Shown: positions 17,860 to 52,170 of the stretch, piece after piece
Position numbering within the stretch: the stretch's first letter is position 1
How the letters are laid out: each line of letters begins with the position of its first letter
NCBI RefSeq assembly: GCF_900105025.1
Contig: NZ_LT629759.1
Span: 1,550,001 to 1,614,000 of the forward strand
Source: Parafannyhessea umbonata
Lineage (GTDB): Bacteria; Actinomycetota; Coriobacteriia; Coriobacteriales; Atopobiaceae
Direction of reading: 5' to 3'
Length of the DNA stretch: 64,000 bases
Position numbers and translations under genes: made by a program
The notes under the pieces: model-generated
What the model saw: only the letters and a program-made list of their open reading frames with translations
What the model was told of the DNA's origin: nothing
Database searches by the model: none

Positions 17860-17954
17860 TGGCGGGAGCAGGTGGGAATCGAACCCACCCGAGCAGCCTC
17901 CTGCTCATACTGGTTTTGAAGACCAGAGGGCGCACCAGTCACCCTTCTACTCCC
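17860..17954 (-). tRNA. selC: tRNA-Sec (anticodon TCA)
   Basis: A 95-base tRNA with the features of selenocysteine tRNA: an 8-bp acceptor stem (GGGAGTAG pairing with CTGCTCCC), a 5-bp T stem, a long variable arm (GAGCAG/CTGCTC), and an anticodon loop CTTCAAA giving anticodon TCA. Discriminator G and the CCA tail are encoded. It lies directly upstream of selA and selB and has its own promoter inside the end of the glycosyltransferase gene. Confidence 0.96.
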
Positions 17955-49309: not shown

Positions 49310-50083
49310 CTACCTGGAGCGAAGCCTGAGGTTCAGCAGCGCCGCCACGATGCCAAACAACGCAAGCGCGAAGAACGTTCCCCAGGTGACGAGCAGCATG
49401 AGGGCGTTTCCCGCAAACGCGAGCGTCGTCGTGGCCATGACAGCCTGGCCGGCGCCCATGACCAGAATCTTGAACGAGTACCCGCCGACTGCCGCAAGGA
49501 CGTCCGTAACGCCAAACAGCGTGAGCACGCCGCCGAGCGACTGCCCCACCAACAGCACGTTTGGCACCTGGAAGCCGCCGGCGTCGGTCACGGCCTGAAA
49601 CGCGATGCAAACGAGGCCCGCGACGACAAAGCCCGCAAGCAACGCCAGCGGCATGGCAGGCGCTTGCGGCACGGGCAGCTTAGGCAGCGTGACGAACGCG
49701 GCCAGGGCGCCCGCAAGCATGTTCACCACGGAGCTGAGGACGATAACGTGAAGGAAGAGTCGGCCAACGCTCCTGATGCCGCCCGCAAATCCACCTCCGT
49801 TTGCGTGACCAGCCTGAAAGGCATCTGCAATGCCACAGGCAAATCCGTTAAACGGGAGGATGGAGCCAAATCCGCTGACGGCCGCGATCCTCTGGTGGAT
49901 GCCGGGAACGTACAGGACGACTGCGAGGACGCCCAGGCAAAGCAGGGTGCACGGGGCGGCAAACGCCGGACCAACAACAGGCTCGAGCGCGACACCTATG
50001 AGCTGGCCAATGAGGCCGTACGCTCCTCCCACCAGAAAGCAGAGCGCGTACAGACTCGCCTTCGACTGGCTCTTTTCTGCCAT
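49310..50083 (-). CDS. SpoVA (SpoVAE-B)-like membrane protein
   Basis: A 257-residue protein with about seven helices. Residues 10-125 resemble SpoVAEb/SpoVAC: LYALCFLVGGAYGLIGQLIG, then a ILPFNGFACGIADAF loop and GGGFAGGIRSVG. The second half is another hydrophobic bundle that may be a diverged repeat. In endospore formers SpoVA proteins move dipicolinate; this genome context shows no sporulation genes, so another solute is likely. ATG at 50083 behind GGAGGGG. Confidence 0.65.
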   Translation of the reverse strand: MAEKSQSKASLYALCFLVGGAYGLIGQLIGVALEPVVGPAFAAPCTLLCLGVLAVVLYVPGIHQRIAAVSGFGSILPFNGFACGIADAFQAGHANGGGFAGGIRSVGRLFLHVIVLSSVVNMLAGALAAFVTLPKLPVPQAPAMPLALLAGFVVAGLVCIAFQAVTDAGGFQVPNVLLVGQSLGGVLTLFGVTDVLAAVGGYSFKILVMGAGQAVMATTTLAFAGNALMLLVTWGTFFALALFGIVAALLNLRLRSR

Positions 50084-50452: not shown

Positions 50453-50528
50453 TGGAGCCAGCTATCAGACTCGAACTGATGACCCCCGCTTTACGAGAGC
50501 GGTGCTCTACCAACTGAGCTAAGCTGGC
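50453..50528 (-). tRNA. tRNA-Thr (anticodon CGT)
   Basis: A 76-base cloverleaf: acceptor GCCAGCT/AGCTGGC, D arm with AGCTCAGTTGGTAGAGC, anticodon loop CTCGTAA (anticodon CGT, reading ACG), TTCGAGT T loop, discriminator T and encoded CCA. Confidence 0.95.
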
Positions 50529-50681
50529 AACCTCTTGCTGCCTTAGCAGCGAATACCAATTATACGGACGCTGCCAAATGATGCAAGCACGAGTTTTGCC
50601 AATTCTCAGGGCGCACAAAACCGCCAAGACCGCCAATGCCAATCAGGCCGCTCTGTCCGGAGTCTCCAACTGCCAGGCAGG

Positions 50682-50950
50682 CCTCACTTCTGTCAGAAAG
50701 TGATGGAACAAGCAGAAGCCTAGGTCCTTACTATCTGACAGATCGCACTCGTGTCAGATAGTGATGGTTCCCGAAGCCTCACAATCTGACAGGTCGCACT
50801 TCTGTCGAAAAGTGAGGACTTCCAAGGCCTCATAATCTGACAGTTCGCGCTTCTGTCAGAAAGTGGGCACGTCGGAGGGCACAAACCGCCGATTTTCAAG
50901 CAAAAGCGCCTCACTATCTGACAGATCGCACACGTGTCAGATAGTGAGGC
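50682..50950. repeat. Array of about 43-bp palindromic repeats
   Basis: Four full copies (about 50727-50768, 50776-50818, 50826-50870, 50908-50950) and one right half (50682-50706) share the form GCCTCACTATCTGACA, about 10 central bases, then TGTCAGATAGTGAGGC. The last copy is almost perfect and ends 30 bases from the stop of the DUF523-PNP gene. Together with unique spacers they fill most of the 451-base gap 50529-50979. Each would fold into a long hairpin; copies differ by paired changes (for example TCTGACAG with CTGTCAGA), suggesting selection on structure. Confidence 0.85.
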
Positions 50951-50979: not shown

Positions 50980-52170
50980 CTACAGAAGGCGCAGCACTCC
51001 GCGCACCAGGCTCTCGAAGTCCGCCGCGTGGCGGTCGGCCTCCTCCAGCACGCTCTGGTGCGTGACGGAGGAGTCGCCGCTCTCGTTTGCCGCAAGCGTC
51101 AGGCCAAGCACGTTCATGCCCAGCGCGTGTGCCATGATGACCTCGCACACGGTGGACATGCCCACGTAGCTCACACCAAGGCCCTTGAGCATCGCGACCT
51201 CGGCCGGGGTCTCGAACGTGGGGCCAAGCATGCCCGCGTACACGCCCTCCTCCACCGTGATGCCGGCGTCGTCCGCCACGCCGCGCGCAAGCGTGCGCAG
51301 GTACGGCGTGTAGGCGTCCGTCATGCCCACGAACGGCGTGTCCAGCTCGCGCACGTGGTCCCACTCCGCAAGCGGGTTCCTGCCCGTCAGGTTGATTTGG
51401 TCCGTCAGGATGCCCAGCCCCTTGTGGGCGTTGCCGGGGATGCAGCCCGTCGCGCACGCGAAGATGATGTCCCGGCAGCCCAGGTGGTGGGCATGGCGCA
51501 CGAGGGACGTGACCTCGGCCGCGCTGTAGCCCTGGTACAGGTGGACGCGCCCGGGGTACACGACCACGGGAACATCGTCAATCGTGCCGATGGTGGCCTC
51601 GAACTTGTGGCCGCTTATGGGGCGGGCCTCCTGGGGGAACCCGTCGATGTCGTGGTAGTCGATGCGGCGGACGGGCTTAACCAGCTGAGCAAGGTGACCA
51701 AGACCCGACCCCAGCACGATGGCGACGGGATGCTCGACGGACGGCTTGCAGCTCTCGACAGTGTCTTCCGTAACCACGCAGATACCTTCTTCCTCGAGGA
51801 GGCGCGCAAACACGCCGTCTCCCTCGGTCAGACTTCCCGAATATGTACCATCGTAAATGACTCCGACCCCGCACGAGGGGCTCTTTGCCTTCAGAACCGC
51901 AAGTGGCGCCCGACTTGACTTTGCCTTCGCGAAGGATATCCGCGCGCCGCGCTCGAAGTCCTCCGTCACGTCCGTGCCATCCTTCAGCATCACGCGTCCG
52001 TTGCGCTGCTCCGCGGGAGGGCGCGGCACCGGAAGCTGGCTCGCCGTCTCGGGGCAGACGCCCACGACGTCCACCTTGGAGCACAGCTCCTCCACGGCCG
52101 AGTTCGGCTTCGCTCCCCCGTCGTACCTGCATGCGGTGCCGCGCAGGCACTCGCTCACGATGACCCTCAT
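50980..52170 (-). CDS. DUF523 domain fused to purine nucleoside phosphorylase
   Basis: A 396-residue two-domain protein. Residues 1-140 match DUF523: VSECLRGTACRYDGGAKPN at the start, VCPE, and KAKSPSCGVG. Residues 145-396 are a trimeric-type purine nucleoside phosphorylase: VLGSGLGHLA, the phosphate site YPGRVHLYQGYS, and the base-site MLGPTFETPAEV and MSTVCEVIMAHALG. PNP releases purine bases from (deoxy)nucleosides with phosphate. Fusion to DUF523, whose function is unknown, hints at a purine-linked role for that family. A strong AGGAGG precedes the ATG. Confidence 0.9.
   Translation of the reverse strand: MRVIVSECLRGTACRYDGGAKPNSAVEELCSKVDVVGVCPETASQLPVPRPPAEQRNGRVMLKDGTDVTEDFERGARISFAKAKSSRAPLAVLKAKSPSCGVGVIYDGTYSGSLTEGDGVFARLLEEEGICVVTEDTVESCKPSVEHPVAIVLGSGLGHLAQLVKPVRRIDYHDIDGFPQEARPISGHKFEATIGTIDDVPVVVYPGRVHLYQGYSAAEVTSLVRHAHHLGCRDIIFACATGCIPGNAHKGLGILTDQINLTGRNPLAEWDHVRELDTPFVGMTDAYTPYLRTLARGVADDAGITVEEGVYAGMLGPTFETPAEVAMLKGLGVSYVGMSTVCEVIMAHALGMNVLGLTLAANESGDSSVTHQSVLEEADRHAADFESLVRGVLRLL

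Follow-up and report, generated by a model that had tools for sequence, protein, structure and literature searches.

We find nine arrays of palindromic dyads at identical loci in two species, absent from the other genomes of the order that were searched, and consider it probable (roughly 0.6) that they are double-stranded binding sites for a putative sequence-specific protein, phased with one another and set in curved spacer DNA. One array lies in the window (the whole 64,000-nt stretch of Parafannyhessea umbonata analysed here); the genome holding it (G000) comprises 2.35 Mb in a single contig, and the second species (G001) is a sister species in the same genus. The arrays combine whole-turn spacing, phased A/T patches and constrained arms, features that characterise duplex DNA bound along a single face; the binding protein, its wrapping of the DNA and the role of the arrays are what we infer from the DNA sequence.

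The repeat unit is a 35-bp dyad, CACTWYCTGACAG-N9-CTGTCAGRWAGTG. A sequence-only reading had described long palindromes at 50682-50950 of the window as four full copies and one half copy with irregular spacers. The palindromes are real (confirmed at 50690-50950), and are also members of a genome-wide family; the full dyads indeed start at 50729, 50780, 50831 and 50912, but the “half” at 50690 belongs to a fifth dyad that has decayed. The left arm of this dyad, AACTGCCAGGCAG (50668-50680), has 3 mismatches, at 3 of the 11 fixed positions; it lies in phase and where a left arm is expected, and the array therefore extends over 50668-50950. This dyad 1 (50668-50702; right arm CTGTCAGAAAGTG intact, 0 mismatches) is followed by a 26-nt spacer (50703-50728), dyad 2 (50729-50763; TACTATCTGACAG-ATCGCACTC-GTGTCAGATAGTG), a 16-nt spacer (50764-50779), dyad 3 (50780-50814; CACAATCTGACAG-GTCGCACTT-CTGTCGAAAAGTG), another 16-nt spacer (50815-50830), dyad 4 (50831-50865; CATAATCTGACAG-TTCGCGCTT-CTGTCAGAAAGTG), a 46-nt spacer (50866-50911) and dyad 5 (50912-50946), with perfect outer arms of 16 bp (50908-50923 and 50935-50950) and a hairpin z-score of -7.2. 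The supposed irregularity of the spacers was wrong: the dyad-to-dyad distances are 61, 51, 51 and 81 bp, that is, 6, 5, 5 and 8 whole helical turns. The arm word has nine matches in the window (≤2 mismatches), eight of them within the array; shuffled sequences gave 2.4 on average and never more than 6.

The array is flanked on one side by a tRNA-Thr(CGT) gene (50453-50528, minus strand), whose 5′ end faces it from about 140 bp away, and on the other by a fusion gene for a 2-thiouracil desulfurase (DUF523) and a purine nucleoside phosphorylase, PNP (50980-52170, minus strand), whose stop codon is 33 bp from the last dyad. This gene slot is common to G001 and to another member of the genus, G002. 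A SpoVAC/SpoVAEB-like membrane protein (49310-50083) adjoins the tRNA-Thr gene, and the window also holds a tRNA-SeC gene (17860-17954, minus strand).

Further copies are found throughout the genome. A degenerate pattern allowing ≤3 mismatches, applied to one genome per species, counted 38 dyads in G000 and 37 in G001, all accounted for by nine arrays in each, and the two sets of arrays occupy identical gene slots: tRNA-Thr/PNP (the window array in G000, L090 in G001), IMP cyclohydrolase (L082/L091), aldo-keto reductase (L083/L092), a lactate dehydrogenase-like gene, ldh (L084/L097), queD/DEAD-box helicase (L085/L093), GmrSD-EamA (L086/L151), response regulator (L088/L095), tRNA-Val/RNase PH (L089/L094) and hisS (L150/L096), some of these names being read from protein starts. 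The same pattern found zero dyads in G002, and no array in 393 other genomes of the order (395 searched in all), with a single weak match in one genome. The flanks of all nine slots are recognisable in G002, and its gaps are shorter in most: 66 bp vs. 358 bp at tRNA-Thr/PNP and about 80 bp vs. 217 bp at the response regulator. The gap at IMP cyclohydrolase is not shorter, different genes lie beyond hisS, and the queD slot is interrupted by a contig end. An exact 18-mer scan of 84,980 species returned four single matches in unrelated bacteria, which we take as chance, and no description of such arrays was found in the literature searched.

The distances between dyads are quantized. They are confined to 40/41, 49-52, 61, 70/71 and 81 bp, apart from one of 62 bp, which involves a disrupted dyad of L086; ignoring this dyad gives one distance of 112 bp instead. 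Taken as whole multiples of one step, the distances give a slope of 10.129 bp (bootstrap range 10.11-10.14) and a residual SD of 0.47 bp, although not all are independent because some arrays grew by tandem duplication; in L094 of G001, for example, a block of three dyads is repeated in tandem. At 10.13 bp the Rayleigh R is 0.96 (0.954 for G000 alone), compared with 0.415 at best among 2000 sets with a jitter of up to 5 bp, a simple shuffle null. The phase has outlasted changes in dyad number: the arrays at ldh read 61-81-61 in G000 and 61-81-81-61 in G001, with the same steps, and those at the aldo-keto reductase read 81-51-50-51-49-81 and 51-81-40-40-81, with whole-turn steps in both species. 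The arrays have won or lost dyads yet kept phase. The idea that an 81-bp distance conceals a decayed middle dyad was discarded: any excess of matches at offset 41 is weak (6.05 vs. about 5.3).

The spacers carry a second periodic signal. The long spacers, otherwise unrelated in sequence, have A/T patches about 10 bp apart whose phase relative to the dyads is fixed. In the nineteen 46-nt spacers, A+T content rises to maxima at positions 7-9, 17-20, 27-30 and 38-40 and falls in between; the 46-nt spacer of the window has the same pattern, with patches at 50883-50885, 50892-50896 and 50902-50905, and the outer flanks of the arrays have no such A+T peaks. For spacers of 26-46 nt, the A/T spectral power is 0.90 at a period of 10-10.2 bp, vs. 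≤0.45 in simple shuffles and 0.24 in other intergenic DNA (803 pieces). The pattern is not explained by common descent, since 46-nt spacers taken from separate loci resemble one another no more than expected from their column composition (0.391 vs. 0.409). Between the species, 11 of 528 bases differ at the core arm positions (1-3, 7 and 9-12) of aligned dyads (2%), compared with 93 of 297 loop bases (31%) and 105 of 427 spacer bases (25%); some dyad pairs in rearranged arrays are possibly misaligned, which would only raise the loop and spacer figures. Judged from these comparisons, arms and spacing are under selective constraint.

The arms have a regular architecture. Arm starts are 22 bp apart in all examined dyads but the L086 dyad, which has a longer loop; the symmetry often runs on about three bases outward, the bases just outside the arms are R-K-G, and the loops point one way in most arrays. 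At L086:10137-10166, back-to-back half-sites form a palindrome, CCCGTCAGATAGTGGTACCACTATCTGACGGG, that is identical in both species. Arm positions 4-6 are variable and covary between the two arms, and the compensating changes noticed in the sequence-only reading are borne out: symmetric pairs at positions 4, 5, 6 and 8 number 218 of 284, vs. 189 ± 6 with shuffled arms. A plain protein-DNA site would not require this covariation, which could reflect mutation or correction templated by the inverted repeat, or hairpin function.

Together these features point to a predicted protein that oligomerises or wraps along one face of the DNA. A dimer or larger unit would bind each dyad through two 13-16-bp half-sites, contacting a CAC block and a C-GACA block one turn apart. 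As all dyads are whole turns apart, neighbouring bound units would share one DNA face, and the spacer DNA, whose A/T-rich patches recur every ~10 bp in register with the dyads, may curve around the complex; the commonest module is a dyad, a 46-bp phased spacer and a dyad. The helical repeat is about 10.5 bp in free B-DNA and about 10.2 bp in DNA wrapped on histones; the observed pitch of 10.13 bp is nearer the latter, which suggests a curved or wrapped path. The shared phased clusters suggest that a candidate protein lines up along curved DNA in this way and builds chromosomal structure.

A different explanation of the covarying arms is that the arrays act in RNA, as hairpin arrays in 3′ untranslated regions that terminate or stabilise transcripts. 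It would suit their location, since each of the nine begins or ends 23-127 bp beyond a gene's 3′ end, and T runs seen by eye after the gene-proximal dyad at ldh, queD and hisS could also terminate transcription. However, most dyads lack a T run, and no terminator was scored in the window array, by a scorer whose loop limit of 8 excludes the 9-nt loop. Among mixed pairs in the arms, the G-U side is not favoured over C-A (7 vs. 10 and 4 vs. 9), so that a selected RNA hairpin is not indicated, and a pitch of 10.13 bp suits B-form DNA, not RNA. We therefore regard an RNA-level role as unlikely. Assignment of the arrays to an Rfam RNA family was also rejected. A ZMP/ZTP riboswitch does lie at L082:9708-9791, between the array and the IMP cyclohydrolase gene, which it presumably controls.

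Conventional operator arrays, at which a transcription factor regulates adjacent genes, seem to us about equally improbable. Dyadic, phased sites are typical of cooperative repressors, and two arrays (L086 and L089) are <100 bp from a start codon; the multi-site operator proposed in the sequence-only reading fits insofar as it is a multi-site protein-binding array. An ordinary operator or classical regulon is nevertheless unlikely, because each of the nine arrays comes after the 3′ end of a housekeeping gene and these genes are unrelated and share no pathway; the sites are not at promoters of functionally related genes, and most arrays are nearer to gene 3′ ends than to starts. The AraC-family genes include no lineage-specific member common to the two species, and a lineage-specific AraC regulator was set aside. 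The seven-dyad array of L083 is adjoined by a 359-aa gene (L083:8687-9766) that the codon-based gene caller missed; it has a homologue in G001, and the matching slot of G002 is just 130 bp wide.

The dyads could instead be REP/BIME-like repeats, that is, palindromes between genes that have no function themselves and are propagated by a transposase recognising hairpins of single-stranded DNA. They are indeed extragenic, palindromic, clustered and multi-copy, they lie beyond gene ends as many REPs do, their arms covary, and their single strands fold stably (z -2.7 to -7.8). However, the Y1 transposase domain (PF01797) has 0 matches in G000, G001 and G002, with matches in control genomes, and no REP-associated tyrosine transposase was found in either array-bearing species; isolated copies are lacking, the loci are the same in both species, loops mostly point in the same direction, and the mechanism gives no role to whole-turn spacing or phased A/T. 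We give this earlier suggestion little credence. In G018, of the same family, a different repeated dyad, GCCCTTCTCGCC...GGCGAGAAGGGC, occurs at six loci (L163:1067-1120, with copies in L168-L176), one of them in the same tRNA-Thr/PNP slot; this genome has two Y1 transposase genes, and the repeat is possibly a REP- or MITE-like family. As a different repeat without phased arrays, it was rejected as a parallel to the window array.

Nor did a relic of a tRNA-targeting element find support: seven of the nine arrays have no adjoining tRNA, and the window array lies beyond the 5′ end of its tRNA, whereas such an element would adjoin an att repeat at the tRNA 3′ end. A tyrosine-recombinase core site, with 13-bp arms and a short spacer, would call for a dedicated recombinase that both carriers have and G002 lacks. 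One integrase pair common to G000 and G001 (96% identical) looks like a mobile unit of ~4 kb with no dyads nearby, and an integrase is accordingly an improbable cognate enzyme of the dyads. In G001, the tRNA-Thr array has an integrase gene (G001:C1:306834-307469) some 5 kb off on its tRNA side, and tRNA-Thr may therefore be an integration site there. A plasmid, phage or viral origin of the arrays was discarded, with chance matches only. Bidirectional promoter arrays, in which the arms give CTGACA-16-GATAGT on both strands, are very improbable: there are five promoter-like matches in the region vs. 0.1 expected, but the first base of the -35-like element is C in 139/142, the A at position 2 of the -10-like element is among the least conserved bases (99/142), and ≥9/12 matches occur in only 43/142 strands.

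Returning to protein-bound, phased sites, we favour a role in chromosome architecture or as boundaries over gene-specific regulation, because all arrays lie just beyond the 3′ ends of unrelated genes. They are found on both chromosome arms, without obvious symmetry about dnaA (2,071 kb). It is conceivable, though we hold it more doubtful than the binding itself, that a dedicated lineage-specific protein wraps the arrays into sequence-programmed nucleosome-like particles, with 10.13 bp per turn and A/T-rich minor grooves inward, that serve as landmarks or boundaries at nine fixed loci. Extragenic palindromes of bacteria have mostly been regarded as parasitic repeats or terminators; in the present case the spacing, the composition of the spacers and the constraint between species agree on one DNA-protein geometry, which the sequence by itself reveals. 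The arrays could serve at once as baits for a new architectural protein. They also permit a direct test of whether bacteria use sequence to position wrapped nucleoprotein particles, and G002, which naturally lacks arrays, offers a comparison.

Among known systems, parS, matS and ram sites are sequence-specific palindromes at few fixed chromosomal loci, each served by one protein, but they are short (about 13-16 bp) and do not form helically phased multi-dyad arrays; the present arrays resemble them in their few fixed loci and differ in being phased multi-dyad arrays. Phased operator or iteron arrays consist of binding-site repeats at whole-turn spacing for cooperative assembly. The geometry found here is the same, whereas the setting is not: nine dispersed loci beyond gene ends, with no common regulon and no adjoining replication gene.

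RAYT-type REP/BIME elements (PMC2817692, PMC3733652) are likewise clustered extragenic palindromes, lineage-restricted and with paired stem changes, but three features, transposase, tag and copy arrangement, place the array set outside them. The two species have no Y1/RAYT; there is no GTAG/CGTC tag at the palindrome foot, GTAG occurring only inside some arms and variably; and no singletons, dimers or alternating BIME orientation were found, all 38 and 37 copies being in the nine arrays. Same-direction dyads in most arrays, whole-turn spacing and identical loci in two species also set them apart.

RemA itself was rejected as the binder, PF04025 having matches in 0 of 7 genomes while controls match. 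The best functional precedents are nevertheless RemA and AsnC/LrpC, whose binding regions, like the arrays, have AT-rich repeats with ~10-bp periodicity and whose DNA is proposed to wrap an oligomeric ring (PMC8481266). The sites of RemA show poor conservation and lie upstream of promoters (PMC8481266), whereas the dyads described here have long, strict arms and lie beyond gene ends. The array set is best classed with clustered protein-binding sites, and a higher degree of novelty is possible if wrapping is demonstrated.
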